A DNA stretch of 64,000 bases from an uncultured Lachnospiraceae bacterium (GTDB lineage Bacteria; Bacillota; Clostridia; Lachnospirales; Lachnospiraceae). The stretch spans positions 26,206-90,205 of the forward strand of contig CAMWHJ010000002.1 in NCBI GenBank assembly GCA_947174015.1, written 5' to 3'. The notes below the pieces were generated by a model. It was given only the letters and a program-made list of their open reading frames with translations. It searched no databases and was not told where the DNA came from. The translations under genes were made by a program, and so were the position numbers. Of the stretch, positions 25,080 to 35,695 are shown piece after piece (position 1 is the first letter of the stretch; the number at the start of each line of letters is the position of its first letter).

Positions 25080-25514
25080 TCATCTCTTTCTATCCATAAT
25101 GATTTTTTCTGCGATTTCAGGAAGCCCAGCATTAGAGTTAAGCCCCACTTTATCCGGGTAAAAAATGTAATCTGAAATATCTTTTATGCCGGTATTCACT
25201 GCAAGATAATCAAGCCAATACTCCATCTCACTTTCGCTGTGTTCAAGAATGTGCAGTACAATTTCACCAATTTCTTTGTCAGAAACATCCTCTTTTGGGG
25301 GCGTAGGGTTTAGAGCCATCCTTGCAATTTCCTCTAAAGAAGTCCAACCCCAATACTCTCTGAAATCTGTAATTTGAAGTGTCTCCTTTCCAGTGATTTG
25401 GCGGAGCATCTTTTCAAACTGCACTACCTCATCCGTAATTCCTCTTTCTTCCATAATGGCTGCGGCATTTTCAATAATCTCCATAACATCTTGTAGTTTG
25501 CTTTTATCAATCAT
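25080..25514 (-). CDS. hypothetical acidic protein, immunity-protein-like
   Basis: 144 aa ORF in a cluster of small immunity-like genes. Confidence 0.5.
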   Translation of the reverse strand: MIDKSKLQDVMEIIENAAAIMEERGITDEVVQFEKMLRQITGKETLQITDFREYWGWTSLEEIARMALNPTPPKEDVSDKEIGEIVLHILEHSESEMEYWLDYLAVNTGIKDISDYIFYPDKVGLNSNAGLPEIAEKIIMDRKR

Positions 25515-25556
25515 TAAAACTTCCTCCCATTGTGTGATGATTTCTATCTTGTTTTG

Positions 25557-25862
25557 CTAAATCTTTCTATCTTCAAAATCAATAATAGGAAAAAAATTAT
25601 TAGCTTTTACAAATTCTATTGCAATGTTATTTTTGATATAAAACGGACTTTGTTCATCCAAAGAATAAACTACAATAAATGCAAAATATCCTCCGCCATA
25701 ATGCATTAAAAAATCTTTGTAACTATTAGGAAAAGCTATTTCATAAAACTTTTCATATTTTTGAATCTTTTCCCTTGTTGGTATACTATCTGAATCCAAA
25801 CCAAATATCTTAGGATTTTTACTTCTAACTTTTAAAGTTAAATCATCAAATTCTCTTTTATT
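25557..25862 (-). CDS. SMI1/KNR4 (SUKH)-family protein, apparently C-terminally short
   Basis: MNKREFDDLTLKVRSKNPKIFGLDSDSIPTREKIQKYEKFYEIAFPNSYKDFLMHYGGGYFAFIVVYSLDEQSPFYIKNNIAIEFVKANNFFPIIDFEDRKI*. Confidence 0.65.
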   Translation of the reverse strand, partial: NKREFDDLTLKVRSKNPKIFGLDSDSIPTREKIQKYEKFYEIAFPNSYKDFLMHYGGGYFAFIVVYSLDEQSPFYIKNNIAIEFVKANNFFPIIDFEDRKI

Positions 25863-26014
25863 CATACTATTTTCGTCCCATCTATGCTGAAAATCTGCTT
25901 GCAAACATTTCTTCGGAATATCTCTCTCGTATTCCTGCTGTCCCTGCACTTTTTCCAGATGCTGTCCAGCCCGTTTCAAAAATTTTTCTTTGCCCAGTGG
26001 TACTTTTACTTTTA

Positions 26015-26058
26015 CAAAAGAGGCTGTCTCACTAATTTATTAGTATGACAGTCCCCTT
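26015..26058 (-). terminator. terminator hairpin downstream of 26095 gene
   Basis: minus strand GACTGTCATACTAATaaATTAGTGAGACAGCCTCTTTTG. Confidence 0.55.
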
Positions 26059-26094
26059 TCCTTATTTGTATCTTACTTTTTGAATGCACTTTCT

Positions 26095-26448
26095 CTAATC
26101 ATGATTCATATTTTCTATCATTTGATTCATATTTTCCATTGAGAATATATCTTCATTCATTCCTGCTAGATAATACAATTTTATCCAATATCCATCATAC
26201 TTGCAATATGTTTGCAAAGCCTTTTTTATAATTTCATCTGTTAGCACACTTACAATAACATCGGGACAACCGGCTGGAACAAACTCTAAATTTTCTTTTT
26301 TCATATAAGAAACATAAAATTGTGGTGTACACACTGTCAATGTATATTTTGTCCCATCTTCCATCTCAACAAAAACATCAATATTATCATTATAAATATT
26401 AAGAATTGTTTCTAATGGTGTGGGATACGTAATCTTTTTTATTTTCAT
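26095..26448 (-). CDS. hypothetical protein, immunity-like
   Basis: 117 aa: MKIKKITYPTPLETILNIYNDNIDVFVEMEDGTKYTLTVCTPQFYVSYMKKENLEFVPAGCPDVIVSVLTDEIIKKAL. Confidence 0.55.
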   Translation of the reverse strand: MKIKKITYPTPLETILNIYNDNIDVFVEMEDGTKYTLTVCTPQFYVSYMKKENLEFVPAGCPDVIVSVLTDEIIKKALQTYCKYDGYWIKLYYLAGMNEDIFSMENMNQMIENMNHD

Positions 26449-26607
26449 AACATCACCTGCTATTTTTTATAAGGTACATGAATATTATAGTGCTGGGGTT
26501 AAAATTTCCAAGAGTGTTCCTTGAAAATTTAATATTGTACAGTATTTACATGCTTTTCACAAAGAATATGAGTATAAGAATTATAAAATCGGAAAGGTGG
26601 TGCCTTT

Positions 26608-26799
26608 TGATATCGTTTAAAACAAATACCTATCAGCAATTATCTTTAGAGGATAGTTTTATTTCACTTACTCTACATGAAAAAAGCTTTGGAATATACA
26701 TGGGCACAGATTTTCGCAGCTGAAATCTTTCCTGCAATAGGCAAAGAACTTTCTTCTGTCCTATATGGTGATAAGACAACTTTGCCAGCCTTTCTGTAA
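26608..26799 (+). pseudogene. frameshifted N-terminal remnant of IS1182-like transposase
   Basis: LISFKTNTYQQLSLEDSFISLT(frameshift)EKKALEYTWAQIFAAEIFPAIGKELSSVLYGDKTTLPAFL*; matches the remembered IS1182-type N-terminus. Confidence 0.6.
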
Positions 26800-26809
26800 A
26801 ATCCTCAAT

Positions 26810-27280
26810 CTATAATAAAGTTCTATCTTTTTCTAACCAAAAATTGTCACATACATAAACAGGATTTTTATAAAATTTTTCTTTGTATTTTTGTTCATCA
26901 AAAGTCAGAACAGCTTTTATAAATTCTTCCGGCGGAAGATAATTATGATGTGTAATATAATGATAAATCATACTTGGTGCAGCATAGGTGACATTATTTT
27001 CACCAAAAACCCGTATTTCATAAAAACCAACCTCTCTTTTTATATTGCTGTATTCAATGGTCGGCACACTAAAGTTTTTATCATAATTTGAACATAAATT
27101 ACATCTGTAAAATCCTCTGCAAACAAATACGGGATATTGGTAATATTTTACAAGTGTTTACAAAAATTCCTCTGGAACATCACCTTTTGCAAATTCCTTA
27201 GAACTATCTAACCACCCTATATTGATTGCATTTACATCACGCTCAAAATATGTATACTTCGCTAAATCATCAAAATACAT
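26810..27280 (-). pseudogene. immunity-like/DUF protein interrupted by a single in-frame TAA
   Basis: ATG at 27280: MYFDDLAKYTYFERDVNAINIGWLDSSKEFAKGDVPEEFL*TLVKYYQYPVFVCRGFYRCNLCSNYDKNFSVPTIEYSNIKREVGFYEIRVFGENNVTYAAPSMIYHYITHHNYLPPEEFIKAV...; the track ORF 26810..27067 is only the 3' half. Confidence 0.65.
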
Positions 27281-27535
27281 TTTTGCCTCCATAATAATTT
27301 GATTTATTCATTTTTCTTAAATTCACTCATTTCCATATTCACAAATGGGAATTCTGATAAGACACTTTTATATTATTGATTAACTGTTATATCTTATCTT
27401 CAAAATGTCCGCAAACTCTTGAAAATGCTAAATTTATAACAAGTGAGCTTTCCCTTGTATTATATCTTCCCATGAGGCATTACGAACCCTGATAAGAGCA
27501 AAAATGAGGAAAGCAAAATCACAGGAAAGGTTAAT

Positions 27536-28090
27536 TTACATAGAGGAATGCATATATTTTCCTATTACGTCATCACTCCAAATATGAGCCTCAATATATC
27601 TTTCTGGACCATACTCTCCATTATTGTTCCAGTCCTGTGGATATCCATATTTTTCTATTATTTCTAATATTTCACCATACGTATAAAGTTTTTTTCGATA
27701 TTCCTTTCCATCATTAACTCTTGAACTAAAAGTTGGATGCGAATCTCCATATGTAAAAGAAATAGTGCTTTTATCAAATTCTTCTATATCTATTTTAATA
27801 AAAGCACTGTTTTCAAACCAAGAATACAACCATGGGCTTTGCTCAACTACCATGTAGTGCGGTACTTCTCTTTGGATATTGCCACCCTTCTTCACAAATT
27901 CAGTTTTTAAGATACTTTCATAATAATGTCTTAATTCCATGTATTGATCTGTTCTTTTAGCACATTGAGTATTTGGTTTTTTTAAAGCAATATTCATTAA
28001 AATCTTTTTTGCTTCATCAATTGGAATATCTGATAAATTTTGAAACGGCTTCATAGAAGCATCGTAATAATGATATAAAAACATTCTCAT
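27536..28090 (-). CDS. conserved hypothetical protein
   Basis: MRMFLYHYYDASMKPFQNLSDIPIDEAKKILMNIA...; good RBS-proximal start inside the Doc fragment. Confidence 0.55.
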   Translation of the reverse strand: MRMFLYHYYDASMKPFQNLSDIPIDEAKKILMNIALKKPNTQCAKRTDQYMELRHYYESILKTEFVKKGGNIQREVPHYMVVEQSPWLYSWFENSAFIKIDIEEFDKSTISFTYGDSHPTFSSRVNDGKEYRKKLYTYGEILEIIEKYGYPQDWNNNGEYGPERYIEAHIWSDDVIGKYMHSSM

Positions 28091-28281
28091 TATCCTCCAA
28101 AACAAAGCCTTGCTGCTTTCGCATAAATGCTGGGGTATAATTCTTTTCCATTAAATGATTGGAACGGATTATTTAGTGCAGAATCTAACATATTCTCATC
28201 CCGAATACCATTACTGCCACCAGTAACTTCTATCAACTGCGTGTGCAGTTTAATTACTTGTTCTTTGCTTAGTCTAATCAA
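28090..28281 (-). pseudogene. truncated Doc (Fic/DOC-family) toxin, N-terminal 63 aa
   Basis: MIRLSKEQVIKLHTQLIEVTGGSNGIRDENMLDSALNNPFQSFNGKELYPSIYAKAARLCFGG*; lacks the HPFxDGNKR catalytic motif. Confidence 0.7.
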
Positions 28282-29554: not shown

Positions 29555-29620
29555 ATATTAGCTCCTTCCTATAATGTCAAGCCCTAAAGTATCCATTTTT
29601 ATAACTTATTTGGATGAATA

Positions 29621-29649
29621 GTAACAGTTCAGGTATCTGAACTGCTATG
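29621..29649. repeat. short copy (B) of the GTAAC palindrome family
   Basis: gtaacagttcag-gtat-ctgaactgctatg. Confidence 0.6.
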
Positions 29650-29688
29650 ATAAATGCTTTCGGGCTTGCTAATTGACATTGCCTGATT

Positions 29689-32600
29689 TTATTGTAAAAG
29701 CGTTGCAATTCCATTTTGATTCACATAGTTGGTCTGTGCCAGCATAGACTGTGAAGCCTGCACAAGAATTTGACTTCTGGCGAAATTCATGACCTCCTCT
29801 GCCATATTGGTGTCCCGAATCTTGCTCTCCGCACTCTGGAGATTCTCTACATTATTGTCTGTGAGAAGAATGGCACTCTCAAAACGATTAAATTTTGCAC
29901 CACAGATACTTCGCCTGGAATTAATGTAATTTAAGGCATGGTCTAAATGTTTTAAACTAAACTCTGCATAGGTGTGTTTTGTTACCAAAATATTATCCAG
30001 CCGCAGCAAAGCTGTGCTGAGAGAAATCCTGTGCATTTCCACCTCCTGCCCACTGTTTGCCCCTACCTGAATACGCATGGGATCGGTATATCCCTGAGAT
30101 GTCATATGAAATAGAACAGTATCTATGGCATTTCCCCGAACCCTGCTGATATCATGTATTCCAAAGGAAGGATATTCTAACTTGAGCCTGTCATCTTCCA
30201 ACAAAACCTCCAGTTTTGGAATTCCTCCTTCCTCATCTCCGGCTTCAAATAAACTCTTAAGTAAATCCACAAATTCCTCCTTAGTATAGCTTCCCTCCGG
30301 AATGGTAAAATCATAAGAAATACCATCCAAGTCAAATCCAAATTGATTTTTTTCCGGGATAATGGTAACACCATTAGATATATCAATAGTTCCGGTGATA
30401 CTGGCCGGGGTTGGGATTCCACTTGTTTTATAGAATACGGTATAAGCAGCGTTTCCACTCACTCCGTCTAAAATATATTCTCCCTCATTGGGGGTCACAT
30501 TTGCATTGGCAGTTTTTAGCGTAAAATTCAAGGCATTGGCATCATTGGCACCTACCACTCCGGTATTGATACCGCCGATTTTTGCCTGAATTACAAAATC
30601 CGTGATGCCATTGTCACTGAGCTGTTTGTTAAAATCATCCTGCAATAGCTCTGCAATTTCATCTCCGGTATAAGTTCCTGCCGGAAGTGTACTGCTTAAT
30701 GTCAGCATCTGAGGATTCCCATCTTTATCCGGATAAGTAAAATCTAGGGTAAGCACATCATTGACACCTGTTTTGATCTTAGCATCACTATTTCGCAGGT
30801 CAGCACGTCCAACCACATAGGCTTCCTGGAATTTTGATGTACCCTTAATGTTGCTGGGAGTATAAGATGTTGTAGTTCTATCAATTCTACACATCACGTT
30901 CCTGTAAAATCCTCCGCTGCAACTGTTGAAAGAATGTCCGCTTCCTTTGCCATTGCTGGCAATAGTGATTCCTCCATTCTCAACAGATACTGTAACTAAA
31001 CCGGAAGCTATGTTGTCTATTTTTGCCTGAAGTGCTGAAACCAATTCAGCGGAAGAATAGCTTCTGTTATCCAGTTTAATATCAAAGGTCTGAGTGGCAG
31101 CACTCCCCGCATCGTTAATATAATTCAAGGTGAATTTAAAATCATTATTCGTATTATCTATGGTAATGCCACTGCTTACATTTGTTTTTCCGTTTACCTT
31201 TGCCGGCTGTAAGACAGATGATGATGGGTATGCTGGATAGGTATACGGTGTCATCAATGCCATGGATGCAGAAGAACTGCTTGAATTAAAGGAAAGATAG
31301 GCATCTGACCCTTGCTTTGTGGTAGTGAAAGTCACACGATTTGAACTATCCATGGAAACGGTTACCCCTGCATTTTTATCAGCAAGCAACTCATTAATTT
31401 TACTTATCAACGAACCAGAGGAATAATTTCCATCGGGAATGGTAACACTAACACTACTATTGTTTACATACAGTTGCAATTTATTATTCGTGGAATTTAT
31501 TGTAACGCTGGAAGCACTCAGCGGATAGTCCAGCGTAAGAACAGCAGGCGATTTCGTATACTGTGTACTTCCCTGCAGCTTATCATAGGAACCATAGGCT
31601 GACTTGTTACAGTAATAATAGCTGATACCCTCTCCCAGCAGAAGATCATTATAGGCAGTTCCACCACAAGAAACAGAAGTAATACTGCCATCTGGACTGG
31701 TAAACTGCAGTTTATTGCCGGAAAAAGAAGCATTTACTTTTCCTTTTAAGTTACTGTTATTTTCTATTTTGTCATTAATATCCTTCAATAATGCTGCCGG
31801 ATTGTCATAACTGGAAGATAAATCAATGGTCTGCGGCATCCCTCCATTAAGCGTAATGGTCAGATTAGGATTACTGCTTTTCAATTCTATTTTCCCTGAT
31901 AAGTTTTTTGCTCCCGTATATGTCACATTTGAACCAGATTGAAAGGTAGCGTTTTCTGTTTTTGATACACTGGTATCACAAAATAAAGCTTTGTAGGCTG
32001 CCTGTGAAACTGTGGAACTATTGTCAAATACAATTATGCTGTCACCACCCGGCTCCTGGGATTCCAACTGTAAATATTCGTAGTATGTATAAGGGAAAGT
32101 AGAATTACCCATATATGTATTGTTAGTAGTAAAGCGAAACCGAGAACCATTTCCGCCTAAAGAAGTATTTAGTGCATTTTTTAATTCTGTCATTGTATAT
32201 TCTTTCGCAGGAATAGATAATTCGATATAGTCCGCATCATCCTCTAATTTAAAGCGAAGCTTATCGTTGACACCTGATGTAATGGTTATTTTGTCACAAT
32301 AACTGCTATGATAGTAAGCCTGTCCCTTCACAACTCCCGGGGTACTGGTAATCTTTCCGTAGTGGGCATTATCATAGAAGATAGAATCATAGGCAATACC
32401 TGTATCAATCTGAAACATATTTCCCTTTAAACCGGTAATAATGTCAGTGCCAGCAGAAAGTACAATGCTGTTTCCCTCATATACCTTTGCCTCCAGTCCG
32501 CTGTCCTCTCCCAGCAGTTCATTGATTTTTTCAATGGTGTCCTGCAGACTGTACTCCCCTTCTGGGATCTTAAGAGAATAATTTTTGACTGCCCCCGTTT

Positions 32601-33453
32601 CCATGGACTGGACTTGGAAAGAAAGCTCATCATTTTTTCCTGCTACAATTTGCAGTGGATAATCTGCATAAAACTTTGTGGTACCGATCAATTCTCCGTT
32701 TGACTGTCCCCCATGGTAATCATAAAAGAGATTTGCCAGGGCACCTCCTACCGACAGCAGCCCGTCACAGCCTTCCAGCTGAAGTGTACAGGCCCCGGGA
32801 CCATGATATCCTATGGTGAAATAAGAGTTTTCCGGTGCAGTTCCCTCCATGAGCTCCTCCAGCGTCTCGATAAGCTCATAGGTGGTGTAATTCCCTTCTG
32901 GTACCGTAATTTCCACTTCATTTGGATCTAATGACTTATCCAAATAAATCTTCAGTGTGTTCTCCGGAGTCACCAGATAGTGGTTTGTATCATTATCCCA
33001 TATTTTCGTACCCTCAAAGGTAGAATAAACCGGCTCATGATCCGTATAAATATCCATGCCATTATATTCCGTGTGCTGGGATATTCTGCCAATCTCCGTC
33101 TGAAGTTGATCAATTTCCAACTGGATAAGTTCTTTGTCCTCCTCTGTATTGGTATCATTTAATGCCTGAACCGTAAGTTCACGCATACGTTGTACCAGTG
33201 CTGTAACTTCACCTAAAGAACCATCCGCTGTTTTTAAATACCCGCAGGCTTCCCCCATATTCATGGAAGCACGGTTTAACCCCCGGATTTGTCCCCGCAT
33301 TTTTTCGGAAATAGCTAAATTAGCCGCATCATCTCCTGCCCTGTTAATCTTATAACCGCTGGACAATTTTTCTGTTGATTTTATACTTTTGCCTGTGGCA
33401 TTTTTATATACATTCTGCCCATAGGCAGTAAGAATATTATGTTGAATAATCAT
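29689..33453 (-). CDS. giant flagellin (1254 aa) with about 8 divergent central repeats
   Basis: Flagellin N-term MIIQHNILTAYGQNVYKNATGKSIKSTEKLSSGYKINRAGDDAANLAISEKMRGQIRGLNRAS and C-term SKIRDTNMAEEVMNFARSQILVQASQSMLAQTNYVNQNGIATLLQ; repeated [ND]xL.F.....xxxIPxGxYxxxELxxxIN units. Confidence 0.93.
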   Translation of the reverse strand: MIIQHNILTAYGQNVYKNATGKSIKSTEKLSSGYKINRAGDDAANLAISEKMRGQIRGLNRASMNMGEACGYLKTADGSLGEVTALVQRMRELTVQALNDTNTEEDKELIQLEIDQLQTEIGRISQHTEYNGMDIYTDHEPVYSTFEGTKIWDNDTNHYLVTPENTLKIYLDKSLDPNEVEITVPEGNYTTYELIETLEELMEGTAPENSYFTIGYHGPGACTLQLEGCDGLLSVGGALANLFYDYHGGQSNGELIGTTKFYADYPLQIVAGKNDELSFQVQSMETGAVKNYSLKIPEGEYSLQDTIEKINELLGEDSGLEAKVYEGNSIVLSAGTDIITGLKGNMFQIDTGIAYDSIFYDNAHYGKITSTPGVVKGQAYYHSSYCDKITITSGVNDKLRFKLEDDADYIELSIPAKEYTMTELKNALNTSLGGNGSRFRFTTNNTYMGNSTFPYTYYEYLQLESQEPGGDSIIVFDNSSTVSQAAYKALFCDTSVSKTENATFQSGSNVTYTGAKNLSGKIELKSSNPNLTITLNGGMPQTIDLSSSYDNPAALLKDINDKIENNSNLKGKVNASFSGNKLQFTSPDGSITSVSCGGTAYNDLLLGEGISYYYCNKSAYGSYDKLQGSTQYTKSPAVLTLDYPLSASSVTINSTNNKLQLYVNNSSVSVTIPDGNYSSGSLISKINELLADKNAGVTVSMDSSNRVTFTTTKQGSDAYLSFNSSSSSASMALMTPYTYPAYPSSSVLQPAKVNGKTNVSSGITIDNTNNDFKFTLNYINDAGSAATQTFDIKLDNRSYSSAELVSALQAKIDNIASGLVTVSVENGGITIASNGKGSGHSFNSCSGGFYRNVMCRIDRTTTSYTPSNIKGTSKFQEAYVVGRADLRNSDAKIKTGVNDVLTLDFTYPDKDGNPQMLTLSSTLPAGTYTGDEIAELLQDDFNKQLSDNGITDFVIQAKIGGINTGVVGANDANALNFTLKTANANVTPNEGEYILDGVSGNAAYTVFYKTSGIPTPASITGTIDISNGVTIIPEKNQFGFDLDGISYDFTIPEGSYTKEEFVDLLKSLFEAGDEEGGIPKLEVLLEDDRLKLEYPSFGIHDISRVRGNAIDTVLFHMTSQGYTDPMRIQVGANSGQEVEMHRISLSTALLRLDNILVTKHTYAEFSLKHLDHALNYINSRRSICGAKFNRFESAILLTDNNVENLQSAESKIRDTNMAEEVMNFARSQILVQASQSMLAQTNYVNQNGIATLLQ

Positions 33454-33482
33454 AATCTATTCTCCTTTCATTATCAAGCCAG

Positions 33483-35153
33483 CTATTGCAGGAGACTGAG
33501 TACTCCTTGGTTTATATTATTAGCCTGAACCAGCATGGATTGTGCTGATTGACATAAAATATTGTTTTTTGCATAATTTGTCATCAAATCTGCCATATCG
33601 GTATCACGAATTTTAGATTCGCTTTCTGTCAAATTCTCACTATAATTATCCAGTCGTGCAATGGTATGCTCCAGTCTGTTCTGCACTGCCCCTAAATAAG
33701 AGCGATAGTTGGAAACTGTCCGGATGGCATTGTCAAAACGTGAGATTTCCACACTGGCTGCATCATGGGTAGACACATCAATATCATCCAATCCAATCAG
33801 AACTTTTCTTCTCATATCTCCAATACAGAAATCCATTTCCTGACCAGAGTTTGCCCCCACCTGCAGTTTGATCCGTTCACCACTGGAATTTGGTTCATCC
33901 CAATGAACTGTCCAAACCTTGCCGCCTAACAGCAGCTTTTCCACTGAGTGCTCGATAGGCAGCCCTCCACCGAGGTTGGGGATCACATTTTTCTCCGGCA
34001 TATCCCAGTCACCCAGACAATCCTCCAAACCATCTTGCAGAGTAATATGACATGCTGCTACAAATGTTCCCGGCTCATTTGCAACCATATCAGTTATCAT
34101 AGTGGCAAACTCGTCTCCGTTTTCCACACCATAATATTTTTTCAAAAGCTCATCAAAGGTTAAACCCGATCCCATATCCTGCATAAAATCTTTAAAGGTA
34201 CCTGCTATTGTATTATATGCCATATAGCTGACTGCATAATAACCCATGGAATACGCATTGGTGCCACTTACTGAATTGGAAAAGCCCGACATAGCTGCTG
34301 CCACTTTGTCCACCGTTTCCGTCCAACGATTATTTCCATGTACTGCCTCTGCAAGACCCTCCGTAAACCACATGGGTATATCTTCAATGGCAGGAGAACA
34401 ATTATGCATCATAATGGCATGGGTTATCTCATGTGTCATAACTCGATCCACCAGCATTCCTCCTGCATAGGGTCCGCTGCTGCTATCAAAGTCTGACATA
34501 TCATACTGTTCGATAAAATCCGTATTCACATACAATGAAAAGCGGTTGGAGCCGAAACCGCTTCCCATAGCTGCCACTGTACCAGCACCCATGGAACTAA
34601 ACTTCACACTCATTATAATATTTTCGTTTGGACCAATGCCCAGACAGTCATTAATTCTGGTAAGCGCATCCTGCAGCCAGGTACTCTTTAAACGTTCCTG
34701 AAATTTTGTCTTTAAATCATTGGCATGAAGAGTATAGCTGCCGTCCAACAGCTTCATGGTGTTATATTCTGTCCCATTTGCAATGCGATCCAGCTCCTCT
34801 GCCAACTGATCCAACTCCTGCTTAATACACTCTCTATCCTCTCTGGTATTGGTATCATTTGCTGCCTGTACGGACAATTCACGCATTCTATGGAGAATAT
34901 TTTGGGATTCCTGCATTGCCCCCTCAGCAGTCTGCACCAGTGAGATCCCCTCCTGGGCATTTTCCGAAGCACGGTTAAGTCCCCGAATCTGTGCACGCAT
35001 TTTTTCGGAGATCGCCAATCCTGATGCATCATCTGAAGCACGGTTAATGCGGTAACCACTGGATAATTTCTCTGTATCCTTTGCCCTTTTCTTATTATTT
35101 ATCTTACATTGCAGATTAGCATTCTGTGCCGCAATCACATGTTGTATAATCAT
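33483..35153 (-). CDS. flagellin with embedded HExxH metallopeptidase domain (flagellinolysin type)
   Basis: Flagellin D0/D1 ends flank VMTHEITHAIMMHNCSPAIEDIPMWFTEGLAEAVHG (HEITH plus downstream E). Confidence 0.93.
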   Translation of the reverse strand: MIIQHVIAAQNANLQCKINNKKRAKDTEKLSSGYRINRASDDASGLAISEKMRAQIRGLNRASENAQEGISLVQTAEGAMQESQNILHRMRELSVQAANDTNTREDRECIKQELDQLAEELDRIANGTEYNTMKLLDGSYTLHANDLKTKFQERLKSTWLQDALTRINDCLGIGPNENIIMSVKFSSMGAGTVAAMGSGFGSNRFSLYVNTDFIEQYDMSDFDSSSGPYAGGMLVDRVMTHEITHAIMMHNCSPAIEDIPMWFTEGLAEAVHGNNRWTETVDKVAAAMSGFSNSVSGTNAYSMGYYAVSYMAYNTIAGTFKDFMQDMGSGLTFDELLKKYYGVENGDEFATMITDMVANEPGTFVAACHITLQDGLEDCLGDWDMPEKNVIPNLGGGLPIEHSVEKLLLGGKVWTVHWDEPNSSGERIKLQVGANSGQEMDFCIGDMRRKVLIGLDDIDVSTHDAASVEISRFDNAIRTVSNYRSYLGAVQNRLEHTIARLDNYSENLTESESKIRDTDMADLMTNYAKNNILCQSAQSMLVQANNINQGVLSLLQ

Positions 35154-35214
35154 AAATTTTTCCCTTCGCTTTCCAAAAAACAATCCCATCTTTCTGTTCA
35201 ATTTATATTCTTTC

Positions 35215-35425
35215 GTAACTATTCAGTACCTTCATAGTTACGAGCAAAGAACCATGCAAAATTGCTTTTCGGGTATTGCACCCATAAAAATTGCTACGCA
35301 ATGGGTGCAAGCAGGCAATCAAACTGATTCACAGTTTGATTACTTTAGGCAATGGTTCTTTGCCTGTTATATCCACTTTTTCTTACGGTCTGTGCAGTAA
35401 ATGCACAGACCTGCTGAACAGTTAC
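35215..35425. repeat. multi-hairpin intergenic element (copy D, 211 bp) in the predicted flagellinolysin leader
   Basis: Outer ends GTAACTATTCAG...CTGAACAGTTAC; nested stems 35244-35255/35352-35363, 35276-35285/35301-35310, 35317-35326/35332-35341, 35387-35396/35402-35411. Confidence 0.8.
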
Positions 35426-35473
35426 ATTCTTTCATTTTTTTGCTGAACAGTCACCGTTATTTTATAATACTAT

Positions 35474-35500
35474 ATATCGGCTGATTCTTTCATTTTCTTA
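35474..35500 (-). promoter_or_regulatory. candidate sigma-28 (SigD/FliA) promoter
   Basis: minus strand TAAGAAAA (35500-35493)-11 nt-GCCGATAT (35481-35474); cf. TAAAGTTT-N11-GCCGATAA. Confidence 0.7.
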
Positions 35501-35611
35501 AGGCAGAAAACAGATCATTTATTTTTGGAGGCTATTTGTCCCAATCCGTACTTTGTTTTGGAAGGCTCCATGCTGTCTCTTTAAAATATCTCTCTTTAAA
35601 ATGCAAAATGT

Positions 35612-35652
35612 TCAAGTCTATGGAAACATTTCCACCGTAGACTTGAACACTC
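35612..35652 (-). terminator. hairpin downstream of nfnB-like gene
   Basis: gttcaagtctatgg...ccgtagacttgaac, 14-bp stem with one G-T. Confidence 0.7.
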
Positions 35653-35695
35653 TTAATATGTTTCTTTGCCTGTTATATCCACTACATGATTTCTG

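Follow-up and report, generated by a model that had tools for sequence, protein, structure and literature searches.

The window analysed here is a 64,000-nucleotide stretch from an uncultured Lachnospiraceae bacterium (assembly GCA_947174015.1, contig CAMWHJ010000002.1, positions 26,206 to 90,205). It carries two adjacent genes on its reverse strand, one for a giant flagellin and one for a predicted flagellinolysin (Table 1). As the initial annotation had stated, the first encodes a 1254-aa protein and lies 29 bp (33454-33482) downstream of the second; its reading frame opens with ATG, and its product is over the size criterion for giant flagellins (>1000 aa). Both flagellin cores exceed their Pfam cut-offs, with Flagellin_N covering residues 3-136 (111.5 bits, cut-off 26.6) and Flagellin_C residues 1168-1247 (61.5 bits, cut-off 23). 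Compared with sequence models, the core appears closer to filament flagellin (PRK12804, 185 bits) than to FlgL (TIGR02550, 80 bits), neither score reaching the model's own full-length cut-off. The giant flagellin has no protease domain.

Table 1. Features of the locus, in window coordinates
Feature	Position	Strand	Basis
Insert between gltA-like and Dabb genes	29555..35695		absent at the site in three congeners
Giant flagellin, 1254 aa	29689..33453	-	ORF; Flagellin_N/C; within clade of giants
C-terminal D1/D0 core of giant (residues 1140-1254)	29692..30036	-	PF00700, 1e-16
Repeat R8 (1019-1130), orthologous to the final repeat in relatives	30064..30399	-	leave-one-out HMM; orthology
Repeat R7 (891-1018)	30400..30783	-	leave-one-out HMM; orthology
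Repeat R6 (762-890)	30784..31170	-	leave-one-out HMM; orthology
Repeat R5 (640-761), nearest the family consensus	31171..31536	-	leave-one-out HMM; repeat profile; AlphaFold unit pLDDT 82
Repeat R4 (511-639); extra repeats of longer relatives lie from here towards R5	31537..31923	-	leave-one-out HMM; alignment to relatives; orthology
Repeat R3 (382-510)	31924..32310	-	leave-one-out HMM; orthology
Repeat R2 (264-381), one of the best conserved	32311..32664	-	leave-one-out HMM; orthology; identity
Repeat R1 (152-263), orthologous to repeat 1 of relatives	32665..33000	-	leave-one-out HMM; orthology
N-terminal D0/D1 core of giant (residues 1-138)	33040..33453	-	PF00669, 4.3e-32
Predicted flagellinolysin (proteolytic flagellin), 556 aa from internal ATG	33483..35153	-	NF033876, 208.1 bits (cut-off 205)
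Zinc-binding HEITH motif of flagellinolysin, then WFTEG	34419..34433	-	sequence
Putative sigma-28-like promoter TTAAG-N15-GCCGATA, ~320 nt upstream of flagellinolysin ATG	35475..35501	-	sequence pattern; same -10 class at 6/14 other giants

Eight tandem domains between the flagellin cores

The region between the two cores consists of eight divergent tandem units of 112-129 aa, each anchored on an IPxGxY-helix motif (anchors at residues 184, 296, 414, 543, 672, 794, 923 and 1051). About eight repeats of 110-130 aa had been claimed, and a statistical repeat signal is present in all of them. Leave-one-out profiles, in which seven units were used to find the eighth, recovered every unit at 14.7-34.3 bits, whereas shuffled controls (500 per unit, for each of the eight) peaked at 5.6-11.4 bits. 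Since all eight units stand above every shuffle, the repeats are confirmed and are far from chance; R4 was recovered although the letters of its IPxGxY motif are lost.

As to their kind, the consensus of the repeat family (PITITSSNNTLSFTVNGSSKTYTITLPEGTYTTDELIDELNEKL..., drawn from ~158 units of 15 proteins) passes the Pfam model of the Flagellin_IN/hook IN motif (PF07196), with 28.3 bits against a cut-off of 22.7, whereas the native giant protein stays below that gathering score at 11.4 bits. Structure prediction with AlphaFold, initially proposed as a check, gave a folded unit (alignment of 120 units, pLDDT 82) whose centre is strand-strand-helix-strand-strand, and Foldseek searches with this model matched outer domains of flagellin and FliD weakly (E 0.09 and up). 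By consensus score and these unit-model matches, the repeats are best classed as degenerate modules of the Flagellin_IN/D2 type. The giant also has a Pfam match to adenovirus penton base (E 2e-8), and a viral structure library returned putative minor capsid proteins. We claim no kinship with penton base: the shared part is the short strand-IPxGxY-helix motif, and sequence matches in the PDB were no better than E 0.016.

A model of residues 40-1230 (1191 residues) has a mean pLDDT of 79.7 and a pTM of 0.43; at that pTM the single domains can be trusted, but their arrangement is not confidently predicted. Its best PDB match is the large flagellin of Geovibrio thiophilus (9au6, E 6e-16), a protein of 792 aa whose TM-score against the model is only 0.19-0.27, so that the overall arrangements are not comparable.

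The initial annotation had drawn attention to cysteines in an extracellular filament protein. Ten are indeed present (residues 70, 222, 229, 386, 492, 596, 615, 845, 855 and 1184), but they carry little weight as a functional feature because nearly all are lineage-specific: only C222 is common among relatives (9/14). Pairing of these residues in disulphides was rejected for the same lack of conservation.

A family of giants with anchored ends and a variable middle

Among 397 genomes sampled from the family, a profile of the repeat matched 12, own genome included and one match weak; apart from the weak one, the ORFs found measure 1255-1824 aa. Five relatives came from a scan of genome contigs, in Eubacteriales and Lachnospiraceae MAGs of which some are named as rumen samples, and matches outside the family but within the same order are few. 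The 14 relatives from the loci read (L106, identical in sequence to L099, is not counted) have 1250-1808 aa and 8-12 detected units; nearly all are complete flagellins and most belong to Lachnospiraceae. One giant (L110, 6539-11805) is split into two frames of 171 and 1472 aa, either a pseudogene or an assembly error. A tree of D0/D1 cores unites the giants in a single clade (support 97/96), inside which falls one flagellin of 490 aa (L048). At 1.07, the core branch of the window giant is longer than that of any other giant, so this core may be less constrained. None of the four other genomes of its genus carries a giant. Judged on sequence, the window giant is a member of a real and conserved family of giant flagellins from rumen and gut bacteria. 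No published description of this multi-domain family was found in the open-licence papers searched, and the type is apparently undescribed.

No conserved gene neighbourhood surrounds the giants across the loci read. Glycosyltransferase genes lie near 5 of the 14 (L096, L104, L105, L108 and L109), which is not a rule; the distance is <200 bp in four of these loci and ~1.1 kb in L108, whose genes were assigned by similarity to that of L096. This proximity could mean that the arm is glycosylated.

Giant flagellins are reported to have arisen convergently in several phyla, including one example in Firmicutes, Eubacterium plexicaudatum (PMC6248924). Those of Oceanospirillales (Thomson et al. 2018, PMC6248924) resemble the window giant in exceeding 1000 aa, in having a core at both ends and in their tandem duplicated central domains. 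However, they contain two tandem DE regions, whereas the family described here has 8-12 IN-type domains, each conserved in position.

Conservation in position is seen at both ends of the repeat array. R1-R4 of the window giant best match repeats 1-4 of its relatives and R6-R8 the last three, while R5 matches middle repeats of the longer relatives and repeat 5 of L102. The proteins with eight repeats (window giant, L101 and L102) are without three whole repeats and one partial repeat of the longer forms, and all of these map between residues 614 and 736. Mean identity is 0.46, 0.46, 0.34 and 0.30 for R1-R4 and 0.31, 0.35, 0.43 and 0.38 for R5-R8, climbing away from the sequence midpoint (rho 0.75, p 1.5e-4). 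The middle of the chain is, in known flagellins, the point that lies farthest out (PMC6248924), so a variable and least conserved middle is the pattern expected of an arm that runs out and back with a varying tip. We infer such a surface arm, with its tip at the R4/R5 junction; given the pTM of the long model, the argument for this topology is drawn from conservation and copy number.

The flagellinolysin neighbour and the origin of the pair

Flagellinolysin (FlaMP, NF033876; Eckhard et al. 2017, PMC5595980) is a flagellin with an inserted HExxH metallopeptidase; the neighbouring gene, not the giant, corresponds to it. Its HExxH...E motif is intact (HEITH...WFTEG, compared by eye with relatives), and by sequence the gene is a predicted flagellinolysin. 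The listed TTG start (35201) would put 16 extra residues ahead of the usual MIIQH; this flagellin-type start coincides with an internal ATG, from which the gene is therefore read. The TTG is probably unused, the ATG at 35153 being likelier.

The initial annotation placed the pair in one operon, took this to suggest a specialised filament and proposed a survey of flagellinolysin neighbours for giants. Flagellinolysin-like matches (E <1e-20) occur in 19 of the 397 sampled genomes, own genome included, yet at the loci read in the other 18 genomes no repeat-bearing neighbour stands beside the gene, which at some of them (L043 and L044) is broken or fragmentary. Nor does a flagellinolysin lie within the regions read around any other giant. 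Two further genomes (G358 and G370) carry both genes, on different contigs. Co-occurrence gave p 0.012 across all sampled genomes (0.07 without own genome) and p 0.063 among genomes with a flagellin-like match (0.20 without), and the association was discarded as not significant once own genome is left out. As far as sampled, the adjacency is thus particular to this genome, and neither the specialised operon nor a self-processing filament, to which nothing else was found to point, is supported as a conserved system. Three flagellinolysins are themselves outsized, at 952-1087 aa (L049, 7118-10381; L051, 6479-9337; L055, 5612-8578), with unexplained extra central sequence that does not match the giant's repeat.

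The pair is held by a 6141-bp insert; in three congeners (G276, G399 and G397) the Dabb gene directly follows the gltA-like gene. Read most simply, this lineage gained the insert, although a loss common to the three congeners may account for the difference instead; the two genes were probably acquired as one unit. The insert has no foreign base composition (GC 0.409, against 0.410 for the window). In G397 the neighbouring gap between the Dabb and S1 genes (L135, 2250-4793) holds genes resembling a DNA adenine methylase and a restriction enzyme (named by eye), so the stretch may be an insertion hotspot. Elsewhere in the window, a cluster of small orphan genes (25080-28105) includes a SUKH/SMI1-KNR4 immunity-type protein (25557-25979); three others have no Pfam match.

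Upstream of the flagellinolysin gene, the -10 element of the sigma-28-like pattern has counterparts in the family: 6 of the 14 other giants have CCGATA in the 150 nt ahead of the gene (expected 0.6, p 1e-5). Genome-wide, however, the full pattern is no commoner than its reversed control (5 occurrences against 4), so that the single site in the window is suggestive only. The two genes are probably co-transcribed from it. FlhA and FliA are present in the genome, and the export and sigma genes needed therefore exist there. The leader also contains (35340-35434, reverse strand) a dispersed intergenic repeat of ~85-100 bp with a 10-bp perfect hairpin (GGTCTGTGCA-TTTAC-TGCACAGACC), of which the genome has no fewer than 40 copies (identity 91-100%) and the congener G398 a diverged one; an Rfam search gave no match for this repeat and none of note for the leader.

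A probable long-armed subunit of a mixed filament

We consider it likely that the giant is a long-armed subunit built into a mixed filament with shorter flagellins, and that it arrived, and is probably transcribed, with flagellinolysin. Its ordinary D0/D1 core would serve the giant for export and for placement in the filament, and the eight IN/D2-type domains would form a surface arm in which R1-R4 lead outward and R5-R8 inward. Probably gained as one insert of ~6 kb and transcribed together from the putative sigma-28 promoter, the two genes would yield late flagellar products that assemble with several shorter flagellins. The resulting filament would be locally thickened by the giant's arms and would carry a surface protease supplied by the neighbour; the arm itself might act as a spacer, or as a binding or drag surface. 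A thick or decorated filament, as first suggested, is plausible by analogy with the measured filaments of giant flagellins.

That analogy could be taken further, with the giant alone building a thick filament of its own, as in Bermanella, unmixed with other flagellins. Giant flagellins of two marine species do give filaments at least 30 nm wide (PMC6248924). Those species, however, have no true flagellin besides the giant, whereas the genome studied here encodes, in addition to the pair, three near-identical flagellins of 441-442 aa on C45 and one or more other structural flagellins; moreover, giant and flagellinolysin have one probable promoter in common. We therefore regard a separate filament as unlikely. 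Somewhat more doubtful is a role outside the filament, as a cell-surface or junction protein (a ligand-binding adhesin) with a flagellin core. The Foldseek search with the giant model also returned the cell-surface flagellins 3k8v, 3k8w and 2zbi, and several relatives lie near glycosyltransferases; those structural matches, however, largely cover the common flagellin core, and the sequence models favour filament flagellin over FlgL.

Trimming of the giant by flagellinolysin, giving a filament self-processed after assembly, seems very improbable. The 29 bp between the genes speak for it, as do the cleavage of another species' flagellins by Hylemonella flagellinolysin (PMC7643111) and the minor autocatalysis reported in C. 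haemolyticum filaments (PMC5595980). Yet the adjacency recurs nowhere else in the sample, and flagellinolysins cleave so broadly that no dedicated site can be named.

Beyond the likely mixed filament, a wider proposal is put forward tentatively, as one that in its full form is rather improbable: the giants may constitute an undescribed long-armed family in which paired IN domains are stacked out and back (4+4 here, ~6+6 in the longer relatives), arm length is changed at the tip, and the gene, coupled to one for a protease flagellin, is able to travel between genomes as a filament-remodelling cassette of two genes. How tandem duplicated outer domains fold, as a continuous tandem or as a discontinuous out-and-back structure, was posed as an open question in 2018 (PMC6248924). 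With position-fixed repeats and two classes of copy number, the family offers a natural series for addressing it by cryo-EM, and it predicts filament diameters that increase stepwise.
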